From contig JAJUJI010000001.1 in NCBI GenBank assembly GCA_029265405.1, forward strand, positions 186,001 to 250,000: 64,000 nucleotides of DNA, written 5' to 3'. Both the position numbers and the translations under genes were made by a program. Under the pieces are notes generated by a model. It had not been told where the DNA came from. It saw nothing but the letters and a program-made list of their open reading frames with translations, and ran no database searches. Within the stretch, counting starts at the first letter, position 1, and each line of letters opens with the position of its first letter. This document shows positions 3,015 to 49,132 of this stretch, one piece after another. This DNA comes from Clostridiales bacterium. Lineage in GTDB: Bacteria; Bacillota; Clostridia; Oscillospirales; Oscillospiraceae.

Positions 3015-4628
3015 TTAAAGGCCCGCGTCCCCGTCGTCAAAGCCATGCATTTGGAGCATGGAATATGAAAGCAGGATGAGCTGCCGTATCTCGGGGCGGT
3101 TCAGTTCGATTCCCAGCATATCCTGTATGCGGCCTATATGGTATATGACGTTGTTCCGGTGCATGCTGAGGGCCGCGCCGGTGTCGGTTGCGCTGCGCTC
3201 CGTAATCAGATAGACATAGAGCATGTAAAAAAGGCTGCTTTTGTGGGCCTTGTCATATTCGTACAGGTTTTTCAGCATTGTATAGAACTTTGTATGCCTC
3301 CAGATGGCGACATTTTCGCGGCCCTCGCCCAGCAGGCAAAAATCGATATAGCGGCTGAAGTAGTAGATTTTCGATTTTTGCTTCGGCATTTTCAAAAGCG
3401 CCCTGACATGCTCCCGTTCCCTCATGGCTTCGCCGTATTTGATTGCCAAAGACGATTGCCTGAAAACGTGATGAAGCTCGTCTATCGAATCAAAATCAAG
3501 GCTTACGCCGCACAGAGCGTTATGCTTTTCCAAAAAAGCCTCGAGGCGGCCGCAAAAATCACGGAACTGATTTTCCGCCTCGTCGGAGGCGTATTGGTAA
3601 AGCGCGACTATCTCCTGCTGGTGCTGAACGAATTTCACCTTCGGAAAAAGCTCCGTAAATTCCGTCAGCATTTTTCCTATCGATACGTTCGCCGAATCCA
3701 CAGGTATTATTTTGAAAAGGCAAAAACGCCCGGAGTAAGGGAGTCCCACATGCTGGGCCCTTTCCTTTATCTGGCCTTTAACTTGGATGCTGCCCTGAAT
3801 AAGGTCGGTAAGCAGGGTATCGTATATATGTATGTGGTTGCCTCTTGCGTTCCACTCGCGCTCCATGTAAACCGCCAGCACATCCACAAACATTTGAAAC
3901 AGATCCTTGAGGCAGTCGGTAAGGGGATGGCGGTTGCAGGTCATGACGACGTGAGCGAAATACGCGCTGCCAAATTTGAATATTTTATGGTGGGCCGTAT
4001 ACTTGGCGACTTTGCATGAGTAATCGGTGAATATGCCGGACTGCTTTTCCCAATAGCTGAAAAGATCGTTGTCCTTGAACATTTTCATCGTCGCCTCGGA
4101 ATGGTAGCCCAGCCTTACCAGATCTACGCAAATAGGGCAATCGCAGTCTATGTGCCGGGTATAAGCCAAGCGTATGAAGGAGGAGTCGGTGATACCTATA
4201 AAATTGTCCAGTATGGGCTCGGCTATATCCACGAGATCCTGCATGGCGCCGCCGCGTATCACCGCCTGCGTCAGGTCCTGCACCCAGTTCATAAGCTCAT
4301 AAAAACGCTGCTGAAGGCGGGTTATTATAACGGTGGGATTTATGTTCTCGTTGACTATGATGAGGCCGCTGAGCATTTCGGGGGTTTCCGCGGAATCGCA
4401 GATGCGGTCCCGCCAGCAAACACAGTAAATGCCGCTTAGCTTTCTCGCGCTCCTTAAGGCAAGAAAGGCCGACAGCCCCATATAATACAGGCATTCGGAG
4501 TCGGGACGGCTCACCGCTTCCGATAGGGGCAGGCATTTATTGAAGCCCTTCGGCTCCGGGCCGTCGACATGCGTTTCTAAGCAGAAGGGGCTTAGCGCTT
4601 CTAAAACGATGTTGAGGGATATGTTCAT
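3015..4628 (-). CDS. PucR/CdaR-type transcriptional regulator
   Basis: This 537-residue protein has a C-terminal PucR-type helix-turn-helix: a tail with LITERSATDTGAALSMHRNNVIYHI, in which the TGAALSMHRNNVIYHI stretch (about residues 479-494) is the recognition region. The central part (about residues 300-420) resembles the GGDEF-like domain of CdaR/PucR proteins. The N-terminal ~250 residues are a Cys-containing sensory region (HIDCDCPIC and several isolated Cys) that I cannot assign. It is divergent from the Liv-type transporter operon across a 632-bp gap, and I infer that it controls that operon, perhaps together with the neighbouring citrate synthase-like gene. Such regulators usually activate catabolic or transport genes in response to a small molecule; the effector cannot be read here. 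Confidence 0.75.
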   Translation of the reverse strand: MNISLNIVLEALSPFCLETHVDGPEPKGFNKCLPLSEAVSRPDSECLYYMGLSAFLALRSARKLSGIYCVCWRDRICDSAETPEMLSGLIIVNENINPTVIITRLQQRFYELMNWVQDLTQAVIRGGAMQDLVDIAEPILDNFIGITDSSFIRLAYTRHIDCDCPICVDLVRLGYHSEATMKMFKDNDLFSYWEKQSGIFTDYSCKVAKYTAHHKIFKFGSAYFAHVVMTCNRHPLTDCLKDLFQMFVDVLAVYMEREWNARGNHIHIYDTLLTDLIQGSIQVKGQIKERAQHVGLPYSGRFCLFKIIPVDSANVSIGKMLTEFTELFPKVKFVQHQQEIVALYQYASDEAENQFRDFCGRLEAFLEKHNALCGVSLDFDSIDELHHVFRQSSLAIKYGEAMREREHVRALLKMPKQKSKIYYFSRYIDFCLLGEGRENVAIWRHTKFYTMLKNLYEYDKAHKSSLFYMLYVYLITERSATDTGAALSMHRNNVIYHIGRIQDMLGIELNRPEIRQLILLSYSMLQMHGFDDGDAGL

Positions 4629-42979: not shown

Positions 42980-43390
42980 ATGAAAATCATGGCCATAGAT
43001 TATGGCGACGCGAGGACCGGCGTCGCTCTTTCGGATATCGGCGGCTCCATAGTCGGCGAAACGCTGGTCGTGGAGTCGTGGAATTATGAAAGGCTGCTGG
43101 AGCGGCTTTGCGGCATAGCTTCTGAAAAAGGGGCCGGGCTGCTAGTGGTGGGGCTGCCTCTGAACATGGACGGCAGCGAGGGGCCTAGAGCCGAGAAAAG
43201 CCGCGCGCTCGCCGCAGACCTGGCCGCGAAATGCGGTCTTGAGGCGGTTTTGCAGGATGAGCGCCGCACGACGGTGGACGCCAACCGCATCCTCTCCGAG
43301 GCGGGAAGGCGCGGCAAAAAGCGCAGGGAAACCGTAGACGCCGTAGCCGCCTCGCTGATTTTGGAAACCTACCTTAACCGGCGTCGCTGA
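42980..43390 (+). CDS. ruvX: RuvX/YqgF Holliday-junction resolvase-like nuclease
   Basis: The 136-residue protein has an RNase H-like fold: MAIDYGDARTGVALSD (first catalytic Asp), LLVVGLPLNMDGSEG, DERRTTVDA and a final VDAVAASLILETYL (last catalytic Asp). YqgF family members process rRNA precursors and may act on DNA junctions. ATG 42980 follows GAGGGGG and starts the conserved motif; the frame opens at 42926 but the extra residues lie over the promoter. It is divergent from argS. Confidence 0.93.
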   Translation: MKIMAIDYGDARTGVALSDIGGSIVGETLVVESWNYERLLERLCGIASEKGAGLLVVGLPLNMDGSEGPRAEKSRALAADLAAKCGLEAVLQDERRTTVDANRILSEAGRRGKKRRETVDAVAASLILETYLNRRR

Positions 43391-45335: not shown

Positions 45336-45373
45336 GCGCGGACCGAAGGCTGAAAGCCCGGTCCGCGCCTTTT
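45336..45373 (+). terminator. Rho-independent terminator after the esterase pair
   Basis: GCGCGGACC (45336-45344) pairs with GGTCCGCGC (45360-45368), followed by CTTTTC. Confidence 0.75.
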
Positions 45374-46314
45374 CATTTCGCCGCTTCGAGCCTTGCCGAT
45401 ACCTCCGCCAAAGTGGGCAGGGCTGGAATGGCGCCCCTTCGCTCCACGCAAACAGAGGCCGCAGCGCAGCCCAGTCGGACGCATTCGGGCCCCGCCCGTC
45501 CGTTCTTTAAATAGCCGTATAAAAAGGCGCCCCAGAAGCAGTCCCCGGCTCCGGTTGCGTCCACGGCCTGCGCGGGACAGGCCGGAGCGTAAAAACCGCC
45601 TTCCTGCGTCATCAGATAGGCTCCCTTTTCGCCGAGAGTAACCGCAACAGCCTTCAGCCTGTAAGCCCTCATCAGCTTTTCGGCGGCGGTCTCATAATCC
45701 GCCGAGCCTGCCAGAAGCTCCGCCTCCTCCTCAGACGCCTTCAGCAGCTCTGCGTAAGGCAGCAGAGTTTCCGCCGCCGAAACGAAGCTCCCCCTGCTTT
45801 CCCAGAGAGCCGGCCTCCAATTGACGTCGCAGGATACCGCTGTTCCCGCCTCCTTAGCCGCCCTGAGCGCGAAAAAGGTCGCGCTGCGGGCGGGCTCGTC
45901 CGTCAGCGACAGCGTCCCCACGTGCAGGACCCGCGCCGAACGTATCAGGTCCAAATCCACCTCCTCGGGCGACAGGCGAGTGTCCGCGCAGCCCTTGCGC
46001 ACGAAAGCAAAGTCCCTTTCCCCGTTTTCCTTCAGCTCAACGAAGGCCAGCGTCGTGGGGCAGGCCGCGTCCAGGCGCAGGGCGCGCGCGTCCACTCCCT
46101 CGGCCTCCAGCACGCGCTTTAAAAAACGCCCGTGCATATCGTCGCCCGCCTTCCCGATAAAGGCGGACCTGAGCCCCAGCCTTGAAGCCGCGACCGCCAC
46201 GTTTGCTGGCGCGCCGCCGGGGTTGCGCTCGTAGAGCGCCATGCCCGCCTTAGAAACGCCGGCGGGGGTAAAGTCGATCAATATTTCGCCCAGAGCGGCA
46301 ACGTCCGTTCTCAT
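45373..46314 (-). CDS. PfkB-family sugar kinase, fructokinase-like
   Basis: This 313-residue kinase shows ALGEILIDFTP, the NPGGAPANVAVAASRLG motif typical of fructokinases, and the C-terminal anion-hole and catalytic motif DATGAGDCFWGAFLYG (catalytic Asp). SCDVNWRPALW is the usual ribokinase-family strand. It would phosphorylate fructose or a similar ketose. ATG 46314 is part of ATGA overlapping the stop of the upstream D-lyxose isomerase remnant, so translation may be coupled to that fragment. GAGGG precedes the ATG. Confidence 0.9.
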   Translation of the reverse strand: MRTDVAALGEILIDFTPAGVSKAGMALYERNPGGAPANVAVAASRLGLRSAFIGKAGDDMHGRFLKRVLEAEGVDARALRLDAACPTTLAFVELKENGERDFAFVRKGCADTRLSPEEVDLDLIRSARVLHVGTLSLTDEPARSATFFALRAAKEAGTAVSCDVNWRPALWESRGSFVSAAETLLPYAELLKASEEEAELLAGSADYETAAEKLMRAYRLKAVAVTLGEKGAYLMTQEGGFYAPACPAQAVDATGAGDCFWGAFLYGYLKNGRAGPECVRLGCAAASVCVERRGAIPALPTLAEVSARLEAAK

Positions 46315-46490
46315 AGATTTGCCCTCGGATACTCGAAGCATAAAAGATAAAGCGGGGCCTCGTCCCACTCATGGCCGAGGCTTTTCCGCCTTTCCTGCGA
46401 AAAATAGGCGAAGGGCGGCAGAAAAAAGCCTCTTTCTTTTATAAAGGCATCCGACCGTCTCAATATTGCGTTGATTTCCGAGCGCTTCAT
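46311..46490 (-). pseudogene. N-terminal remnant of a D-lyxose ketol-isomerase
   Basis: A 59-codon frame begins MKRSEINAILRRSDAFIKE and continues FFLPPFAYFSQERR and GHEWDEAP. This matches the N-terminus of D-lyxose isomerases (MKRSEIN..., LPPFAYW..., W near the EWDE element) as I know them; the full enzymes have roughly 170-230 residues with a cupin metal site, which is absent here. After EWDEAP the sequence departs (LYLLCFEYPRANL) and stops in ATGA overlapping the sugar kinase start. I read it as a deletion remnant fused to a short tail; expression as a leader peptide for the kinase is possible. A GGAGGGAG ribosome-binding site exists but is about 13 nt from the ATG. Confidence 0.7.
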
Positions 46491-46523: not shown

Positions 46524-47543
46524 CTATTGCACATAGTCCTTCAGCACGTTTGAGGCGCATTCGGCAAACAGCCTCGCGCCTTCCAGCGCCTCTTTAAGCG
46601 TGTTGAGATTGGTCCCCACCTCGAGGAGCATGTAGCCCGGCGCCGCCTGCTCGTTGTAGCGCTCCTTTGAAAGGCAGAGGGGCCTTGCAAAACCGTCATA
46701 ACGCTGCTCCATTTCCATCTGTATTTCAAGCGCCAGCTTCAGGTTTTCCTTCCAGCTTGGGTGATGCAGGCCGGCCTCCCCCGTGGTGATGAGCAGCATC
46801 ACCTGAGCCGCGTCGGCCCCGCCGCCGGAATAGCAGGTTTTGCCGCCGCTTTCCAGAGCGTCCCTGTGCAGGTCTATAACCACCTTTATGGACGGGTATT
46901 TCTCAAGCCAGGACTCCACGGCAGCCAGCGAGCGCGTATAGGAGCCGCTGTAGCCGGGATAATCGTAGTATTCCCGGTCGTGGACGACGATAAAGCCCCT
47001 GTCCTCAAAGGCCCGGGCAAGCTCGTCTCCCACGCGTATCACGCTCCGGCTTTTGTCCAGCGTCCTGTACGGATCGCTTTCCTCGTATGCGTCGTCGCCG
47101 GAGGGGGTATAGGCCTCGCAGCTGTGGGTATGTATTATCAGTATCTGAGGCTGATCCTTCTTTAAGACCGAGGACCATCTTTCCCTAAACAGGGCGCTCC
47201 AGTCCGGCTGATACGACGTATAGTTGTTGATCTCGGGCAGTATCCCCTTCAGGCTTATTATAAGTCCCCCATGCTGGCCGCCGGTTTCCTCTTCATCCTC
47301 GGGCGTTCCCGAGGCGGCCTTCGTTTCCGGCAGGCTCAGCAGGCTCCCGGGAACCGAGCTTTCGCCGGCAAGCCAGGCTTCCTCCTTATCCGTGCCGTAC
47401 GGCATCGCAAAACTCATGAGAAGGGAGCTGTTGGCCAGCCTTTTCAGCGCCTCCGATATTCCAATATCCGCAAGCAGCTTCGCGAGCAGACAAAGAGCCA
47501 GCAGCACCGCGCCGCTTTTCCACCACAGCGACTGGTATCTCAT
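46524..47543 (-). CDS. spoIIP: Stage II sporulation protein P
   Basis: The 339-residue protein has an N-terminal membrane anchor (about residues 10-26) and a C-terminal amidase/endopeptidase domain: ILIIHTHSCEAYTP (metal His), HDREYYDYPGYSGSYTRSL, KVVIDLHRDA, and LLEVGTNLNTLKEA. SpoIIP degrades septal peptidoglycan during engulfment with SpoIID and SpoIIM. This is direct evidence that the lineage makes endospores. ATG 47543 follows GGGAGG; the upstream ATG at 47561 is not needed. It lies outside its usual gpr-spoIIP context, and the isomerase remnant and sugar kinase follow on the same strand. Confidence 0.93.
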   Translation of the reverse strand: MRYQSLWWKSGAVLLALCLLAKLLADIGISEALKRLANSSLLMSFAMPYGTDKEEAWLAGESSVPGSLLSLPETKAASGTPEDEEETGGQHGGLIISLKGILPEINNYTSYQPDWSALFRERWSSVLKKDQPQILIIHTHSCEAYTPSGDDAYEESDPYRTLDKSRSVIRVGDELARAFEDRGFIVVHDREYYDYPGYSGSYTRSLAAVESWLEKYPSIKVVIDLHRDALESGGKTCYSGGGADAAQVMLLITTGEAGLHHPSWKENLKLALEIQMEMEQRYDGFARPLCLSKERYNEQAAPGYMLLEVGTNLNTLKEALEGARLFAECASNVLKDYVQ

Positions 47544-47556
47544 CGGCGCACCTCCC

Positions 47557-47574
47557 CTCATATATAAATATGAG
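47557..47574 (-). promoter_or_regulatory. Inverted repeat before spoIIP
   Basis: CTCATAT (47557-47563) and ATATGAG (47568-47574) flank ATAA, just upstream of the spoIIP ribosome-binding site. It may be an operator or 5' hairpin. I cannot assign a sigma-E promoter with confidence. Confidence 0.4.
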
Positions 47575-47668: not shown

Positions 47669-47935
47669 ATGAAATACGTATATGAAACGCAGGGCACCTG
47701 CGCCCGCCGCATTATACTGGAAATCGAAGCGGACAAGCTTGCCAAGGTTGAGTTCGTCAGCGGCTGTCCCGGAAACACTCAGGGAGTGGCGAGGCTTGCC
47801 GAAAACAGGAACGTGGACGAGGTCATCGGCCTTCTTGAAGGGATACGCTGCGGCTACAGGCCGACCTCCTGCCCGGACCAGCTTGCCCGGGCCCTGAAGG
47901 AGATCAAGCAAGGCTGCCTTAAGCGGCAATCATGA
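47669..47935 (+). CDS. TSCPD-domain protein (TIGR03905-like)
   Basis: The 88-residue protein contains C-x-R near the N-terminus (GTCARRI), SGCPGNTQGVARL and the name-giving TSCPDQLARAL. These Cys positions are conserved in the family, which is related to a domain of vitamin B12-dependent ribonucleotide reductases; the stand-alone proteins have no established function. Its stop codon overlaps that of the convergent fusion gene: the palindrome TCATGA at 47930-47935 serves as TGA on both strands. Confidence 0.88.
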   Translation: MKYVYETQGTCARRIILEIEADKLAKVEFVSGCPGNTQGVARLAENRNVDEVIGLLEGIRCGYRPTSCPDQLARALKEIKQGCLKRQS

Positions 47936-49132
47936 CATTCCGTTGCCGCTTGCGCCGAGTTCTACTATAATATAGTCCCCTTTTTTCGGGTTGCAGCTTG
48001 AAAAGGCCCACTCAATATCGCGCCCGTGCAGGCTGGCGTACAGGCACTTTATTACGCCTAAATGGCTGACTATTATCATGTCCCTGCTTTTGTCCAGCGC
48101 CAGCATATCCCAAAGGCACCGCTCGACCCGGCGCTGCAGGTCGTAAAAGCTTTCGGCTTCGGCGTCGATTTTATAAGAGAGTATGTTTTCGCCCCGCCTT
48201 TTGTATTCGTCGGGGCATTCCCTTTTGATATCCTCAATAAGCCTTCCTTCCCAGGAGCCCAGCGATATTTCGTCCAGGCAGGGCATGACGCGCAGGGGCA
48301 GGCGAAGCGCTTCGGCTATTATCTGCGCCGAGGCCCTTGCCCTTTTCAGACTGCCGCAGTAGACCGCCTCGGCCGACGGCTCCGGCTTTAAGGCGGCAAG
48401 CTCGCCGGCGGCAAGGCGCGCCTGCTCCAGGCCTCTTTCGGACAATTGCGCGTCGTAGCGGCCGATGTAGATTTTGCCGGAATGCAGCTCCGTTTCCCCG
48501 TGCCGCAGAAGTATGAAGCGGCGCCCGGAGGCCGCTTCGGCAAGGCTCTTGCTTTCAAGCCGGAGCATGCTTTGATAATCCTCCGGCTCGTCCATGTCCA
48601 GCACAACGCCCTCATAGGGCACCTCGACGCGCAGGATTTCGGCCTCATAGCGCCCGGTCACACCCTTGAGCCCCATGTCCCCGGTGTATGCGAGTATTTC
48701 CCTAAAAAAGCGTGAGGGTATCCACAAAGGGTGCCCTTTTTTGCCGCGGAAGGCCGGAACGGCAAAATGCTCGCCGTCCGCCGCAGCCAGCAGCTCCCTG
48801 ACGGCTGCCGCAGGAACCAGCGGGCAATCGGCGGGCAGCAGCAGCGCCCCGCGCGCCCCCTTCTCGCTGAAGCGCCTCACCCCCGCCCGGACGGAGGTAA
48901 ACATGCCGCCGCCGTAATCGGGGTTGCATATCTCCTCGGCCCCCTCGGAGGCTATAAGCTCCCTGAGCAGCTCCCCGTTGTACCCGGTCACTACGCCCAC
49001 CTCGTCCGCGCCGCCGGCCTTCAGGCTGCGTATAGCCAGGGCCAGGGCCGGGACGCCTCCCAGCTTTAACAGAGGCTTAAAGGCCCCCATCCTCGAGGAA
49101 TATCCGGCCGCAAGCACTATCGCCCCCGTCAT
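47930..49132 (-). CDS. MocA/MobA-like nucleotidyltransferase fused to histidine phosphatase
   Basis: This 400-residue protein has two domains. Residues 1-195 are an NTP_transf_3 domain of the molybdenum cofactor cytidylyl/guanylyl-transferase type: IVLAAGYSSRMGAFKPLLKLGG, LLLPADCPLV and GHPLWIPSRFF. Residues ~205-400 are a phosphoglycerate-mutase-like phosphatase: FILLRHGETELHSGKIYIG, YCGSLKRARASAQI, DEISLGSWEG and VSHLGVIKCL; this domain resembles CobC alpha-ribazole phosphatase. The N-terminal domain could attach a nucleotide to Moco made by the moe/moa operon; the phosphatase substrate is unclear. No broken reading frame or linker Gly stretch is seen. Confidence 0.9.
   Translation of the reverse strand: MTGAIVLAAGYSSRMGAFKPLLKLGGVPALALAIRSLKAGGADEVGVVTGYNGELLRELIASEGAEEICNPDYGGGMFTSVRAGVRRFSEKGARGALLLPADCPLVPAAAVRELLAAADGEHFAVPAFRGKKGHPLWIPSRFFREILAYTGDMGLKGVTGRYEAEILRVEVPYEGVVLDMDEPEDYQSMLRLESKSLAEAASGRRFILLRHGETELHSGKIYIGRYDAQLSERGLEQARLAAGELAALKPEPSAEAVYCGSLKRARASAQIIAEALRLPLRVMPCLDEISLGSWEGRLIEDIKRECPDEYKRRGENILSYKIDAEAESFYDLQRRVERCLWDMLALDKSRDMIIVSHLGVIKCLYASLHGRDIEWAFSSCNPKKGDYIIVELGASGNGMS

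Follow-up and report, generated by a model that had tools for sequence, protein, structure and literature searches.

Between a SpoIIP gene and a PfkB-family sugar kinase gene of this Clostridiales bacterium lies an open reading frame of 59 codons, which raises the question of whether it encodes a small protein, serves the kinase gene behind it or is what is left of a longer gene. The original prediction, made from the same 64,000-nucleotide stretch of DNA (referred to here as the window), took it for a truncated D-lyxose isomerase gene with a foreign tail. We found that the frame is real and that it runs on the minus strand from 46490 to 46311 (MKRSEINAILRRSDAFIKERGFFLPPFAYFSQERRKSLGHEWDEAPLYLLCFEYPRANL); the plus strand has stops in frame 1. 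It contains both of the motifs, MKRSEIN and LPPFAY, that had been read as the start of such isomerases. We conclude, with a probability of about 85%, that the frame is a remnant of lyxI, the D-lyxose (D-mannose) isomerase gene, produced by one in-frame internal deletion. The features of the locus are listed in Table 1.

Table 1. Position, strand and supporting evidence of the lyxI remnant, its parts and the neighbouring genes in the window
Feature	Position	Strand	Evidence
Probable lyxI (D-lyxose isomerase) remnant with internal in-frame deletion	46311..46490	-	PF07385, C-terminal identity to G079, C-terminal profile
Remnant N-terminal part, isomerase codons 1-42	46365..46490	-	26/42 residues identical to the intact syntenic G079 gene
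Inferred breakpoint sequence GACGAGG (Asp-Glu codons and one further base)	46358..46364	-	repeat comparison with G079
Remnant C-terminal part, Asp-Glu codons to stop	46311..46364	-	C-terminal profile
ATGA overlap of remnant stop and kinase start	46311..46314	-	sequence
PfkB sugar kinase, fructokinase-like, 313 aa, putative former partner gene	45373..46314	-	PF00294 1.8e-68
SpoIIP gene, conserved neighbour	46524..47561	-	PF07454 4.9e-53, synteny
RuvX, Holliday junction resolvase family	42980..43390	+	PF03652 1e-34, synteny
MobA-like NTP transferase and histidine phosphatase gene	47930..49132	-	PF12804, PF00300, synteny

The similarity to D-lyxose isomerases that had been predicted proved to be significant. 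Residues 1-44 of the frame, and these only, matched positions 1-44 of the 222-position Pfam model Lyx_isomer (PF07385) with 40 bits (E 3.2e-10; cut-off 20.8 bits), and the isomerase of PDB entry 3kmh was matched at E 0.0093. The tail consists of DEAPLYLLCFEYP plus four residues at the end. The isomerases of relatives close with the block DE...LLCxEYP, which is also present in the remnant. We scored all 127,924 six-frame 13-mers of the window against a profile of this C-terminal block built from 45 intact genes; DEAPLYLLCFEYP reached 38.5 bits and the runner-up 9.3 bits. Two of the 45 rows (L078 and L093) were anchored too early; we did not drop them from the counts, and no meaning attaches to how low they score at this block. 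The block shares 11 of 13 residues with the nearest intact gene, that of genome G079, and the tail is 65-71% identical to the gene ends of G054, G012, G034 and G010, each of these matches being weak on its own in a plain search (E 0.06-0.57). We therefore rejected a foreign tail on the strength of the C-terminal profile. The tail is the native isomerase C-terminus, and 'truncated' does not describe the gene either, as both native ends are retained and the middle is gone.

With 59 residues, compared with 224-233 in the 45 intact genes, the product falls far short of a full-length enzyme. It shares with the D-lyxose isomerase of PF07385 (PDB 3kmh) the N-terminal 44 residues and the DE...LLCxEYP block but is without about 166 central residues, including the metal-binding cupin motif. 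The G079 residues H102, H104, E109 and H170 all fall within the missing codons 43-208, and the cupin metal site of three His and one Glu is thus absent from the remnant. These residues fit the cupin motif GX5HXHX3,4EX6G; we take E109 to be the metal-binding Glu from this motif and from the E. coli enzyme. Judged by its residues, the remnant product should be without isomerase activity. PMC8378251 gives the same motif and a His spacing of 68 residues for an archaeal D-lyxose isomerase, and PMC6746899 likewise has a spacing of 68 residues. In these two enzymes, both smaller, the Glu follows 13 residues after the first His, whereas it follows 7 after in the G079 gene.

The junction was compared with the lyxI gene of G079 (locus L113), the closest intact counterpart in this position. 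In this gene, the Asp-Glu codons 43-44 and 209-210 both read GACGAGG and lie 498 bp apart. The remnant has a single GACGAGG, preceded by the same six bases (GAGTGG) as the first copy in G079 and followed by the same residues (Ala-Pro-Leu) as the second. Relative to G079, the deletion comprises 166 codons and is in frame. Because the junction falls on a repeat, a slippage-type mechanism is suggested. By itself, such a repeat would be weak evidence for a mechanism: the G079 gene contains 13 direct repeats that are 7 bp or longer and 60 bp or more apart, nine of them in frame, and the full 7 bp were present at both breakpoint places in 2 of 42 intact genes only (2-6 bp in the rest).

Bacterial gene remnants can arise by deletion between short direct repeats. 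The present case resembles such remnants in that the junction lies at a short repeat that is present at both ends in an intact relative; it differs in that the repeat is in frame, which leaves the stub as an uninterrupted frame reaching the start of the following gene. We hypothesize that the ancestral order was SpoIIP-lyxI-fructokinase, with lyxI and the kinase gene overlapping as ATGA. About 166 codons would then have been lost between the GACGAGG repeats in Asp-Glu codons near both gene ends, with replication slippage or single-strand annealing as the most likely mechanism. As the two repeats share the reading frame, the first 42 codons would have been fused to the last 17 without a frameshift. 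Ribosomes that initiate at lyxI could still have reached the ATGA, so that the kinase would not have been severed from translation but would have kept its link to it.

The intact arrangement from which the remnant would derive was found in relatives. G079 and G161, two genomes of one genus, carry the MobA-like/phosphatase gene, SpoIIP, lyxI, kinase and RuvX in that order, with an ATGA overlap between lyxI and kinase. The gene order and the overlap are those of the window; their lyxI is full-length, interrupted in G161 (L114) by an assembly gap of Ns, and there are no esterase genes between their kinase and RuvX. The split lyxI matches in G161 were initially a candidate for a second broken gene, which we rejected because of this gap. 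Two points count against the remnant reading here: G079 belongs to another genus (kinase identity 58%), and the genus of the window is sampled by one genome only.

A third state of the locus occurs in the genus designated g11. In G200 and G010 the kinase gene begins 12 and 10 bases after SpoIIP, respectively, with no lyxI between them, and in G358 about 1 kb separates the two genes with no lyxI match inside. In the stretch of G250 (g11) that was examined, the kinase had no SpoIIP match next to it. In a tree of 41 kinase rows, the window kinase fell into a supported group of nine (99/96), which also contains the kinases of G079 and G161 and six from g11 that lack a neighbouring lyxI; the tree gives no firm branching order within this group. 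Genes for lyxI are missing from the conserved locus in G200 (L124), G010 (L126) and G358 (L125) but are present on another contig of each.

The pairing of the two genes extends beyond this locus. Of 45 distinct intact lyxI genes, which are the best-scoring loci and not a random sample, at least 17 (G079 included) are followed on the same strand by a PfkB gene. The count is a minimum, since for the other 28 only 62 to 1,488 downstream bases could be inspected; the kinase of G030, for example, was missed owing to a short downstream stretch. Three of the 17 pairs (G079, G195 and G285) have a 4-nt overlap, one of the downstream kinases shares just 28% identity with that of the window, and one is separated from its lyxI by 887 bases. 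PF07385 was found in 107 of 400 genomes sampled from a larger group, this genome included. Here, in a genome rated 98.81% complete, no PF07385 match besides the remnant and hence no second isomerase copy was found. The predicted decay of an isomerase-kinase pair is supported by this negative result and by the intact pairs of relatives, of which two occupy the syntenic locus.

We also asked whether the retained codons have begun to drift. Over 55 residues, mean identity to the other 42 rows was 30.1 for the remnant, 29.3 for the G079 gene and 31.5 for the G161 gene. The divergence of the remnant is thus no greater than that of intact genes. This counts against the remnant reading and implies either a recent deletion or a stub that remains under constraint. 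Its leave-one-out score was sixth lowest of 43, low but within range, two of the lower rows being the mis-anchored ones. At position W35, Trp in all 42 intact rows, the remnant has Arg, and at P32, Pro in 37 of 42, it has Gln. These residues perhaps represent first signs of relaxed constraint, and the deletion is probably young relative to the split of the genera.

An assembly artefact would leave the real lyxI complete, the assembler having joined across the repeat or taken a minority variant. The assembly comprises 20 contigs and the inferred breakpoints do carry a 7-bp repeat, but such a repeat is far shorter than assembly k-mers, the middle of lyxI was found nowhere else in this genome, and the W35R exchange at an otherwise invariant position fits a loss of constraint. 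We consider an artefact improbable.

The open frame, its mostly ordinary isomerase residues and the lack of excess divergence would also suit a 59-residue protein that has taken on a new function, such as regulator or partner of the kinase. Such a protein should recur, yet neither the 106 other genomes with a match in the family search (400 genomes) nor the 61 others with a match in a search across the taxonomic order (394 genomes) listed the 59-codon form. Conservation of exactly this short length in many species, by which a genuine small protein had been expected to betray itself, was therefore not observed in either search, in which the genus is represented by one genome. This negative result rests on the match listings and on the inspection of some of the partial matches; others, such as G145:C201, G318:C10, G351:C20 and G132:C65, were taken as listed. 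Those shorter ones that we opened proved to be frames cut by a contig end, the gene with the N gap, a remnant of the C-terminus only and a likely chimera. Taken together, these findings make a functional small protein very improbable.

Among the candidates for a short form, G351:C138, G351:C69, G370:C112 and G314:C5 were rejected, since each runs to a contig end. G351:C166 (L127, 4128-4271) was likewise rejected: it has a lyxI start, an internal jump and then unrelated sequence near the contig end, and is probably a chimeric assembly. The two shortest other frames in the order search, 118 aa (G476:C123) and 157 aa (G674:C21), lie, by their listed positions, within 500 bases of a contig start. 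In a genome of another genus, G029:C70 (L130, around 3352-3507) has a C-terminal-only lyxI fragment, apparently an independent remnant, with no kinase match within the 8.7 kb examined.

As predicted, the TGA of the remnant overlaps the ATG of the PfkB gene as ATGA (46314-46311). The same overlap exists in G079 and G161 and is therefore very likely older than the deletion. The stub is presumably translated. Shine-Dalgarno pairing at its own start was calculated as -8.7 kcal/mol. Its C-terminal part contains GAGGG, the sole Shine-Dalgarno-like stretch ahead of the kinase start in the window. The pairing ahead of the kinase is -6.4 kcal/mol here, -11.5 in both G079 and G161, -7.6 in G200 and -9.3 in G010.

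It is possible, if tentative, that the stub has been kept as a translated leader, with translation starting at lyxI, ending at the ATGA and reinitiating on the kinase, and with selection holding the frame open; such a role can sit on top of an origin as a deletion remnant. The exact preservation of the ATGA, the 59 codons without frameshift, stop or excess divergence and the pairing ahead of the kinase, weaker than in G079 and G161, would all agree with it. Moreover, two E. coli gene pairs needed no more than the last 15 nt of the upstream gene for termination-reinitiation (PMC10666635). However, because intact relatives also have the ATGA, it does not point to new selection, and the kinase manages without lyxI in G200 and G010. 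Neither is a pairing of -6.4 kcal/mol unusual: the value for another gene in the window (start 42737) is -5.6, and 16% of 20-mers drawn at random pair as strongly as -6.4. The leader would, in addition, be drawn from one genome, the family and order searches having yielded no second genome with the short form. We regard it as rather unlikely that the deletion survived by removing an unneeded enzyme yet keeping a coupling on which the fructokinase depended, the 59-codon translated leader then being a regulatory shell. An ordinary gene remnant, and hence pseudogenisation, is our main reading.

The original prediction had named a fructokinase as a sensible former partner of the isomerase. This is plausible because D-lyxose isomerases are reported (PMC8378251) to convert mannose and fructose into each other, and likewise lyxose and xylulose, at least one of them being nearly lyxose-specific. 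Among the kinase profiles, the score was 227.5 bits with TIGR04382 (5-dehydro-2-deoxygluconokinase; cut-off 300) and, slightly lower, 213.5 bits with PRK09434 (fructokinase; cut-off 450), in both cases below the NCBIfam cut-off. The best PDB match was the fructokinase 5ey7 (3.6e-45), and the two nearest PDB sequences are both named fructokinase, which suggests that the kinase is a fructokinase. PfkB was matched strongly once in this genome, and three further, weak matches fell in two other frames. The genome yielded no type I mannose-6-phosphate isomerase domain (PF20511), no AGE-family epimerase (PF07221) and no bact-PGI_C domain (PF10432). In the open-access literature, we found no paper that joins D-lyxose isomerase, fructokinase and mannose, and none that joins D-mannose isomerase, fructokinase and operon.

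The mannose/lyxose step has presumably been lost in this organism, and we predict that it no longer turns mannose or lyxose into the ketose by the lyxI route. The locus offers a clean example of gene loss ahead of a coupled gene and is seen in three states: a whole lyxI, a lyxI that has lost its middle but kept its frame, and no lyxI. As a natural experiment, it may help to show whether coupling to a downstream gene restricts the deletions that persist.

The flanking genes are largely shared with the relatives. SpoIIP lies 33 bp upstream of the remnant on the same strand, and the Met codon of this gene at 47543 has a better Shine-Dalgarno sequence than the start at 47561. The MobA-like/phosphatase gene also neighbours the locus in G079, G161 and G010. 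RuvX is the convergent neighbour of the kinase in relatives, the two being directly adjacent in G079, G161, G200, G010 and G358. In the window, two tandem putative esterase genes (PF00756; 43586-44464 and 44484-45323, plus strand) separate the kinase from RuvX.
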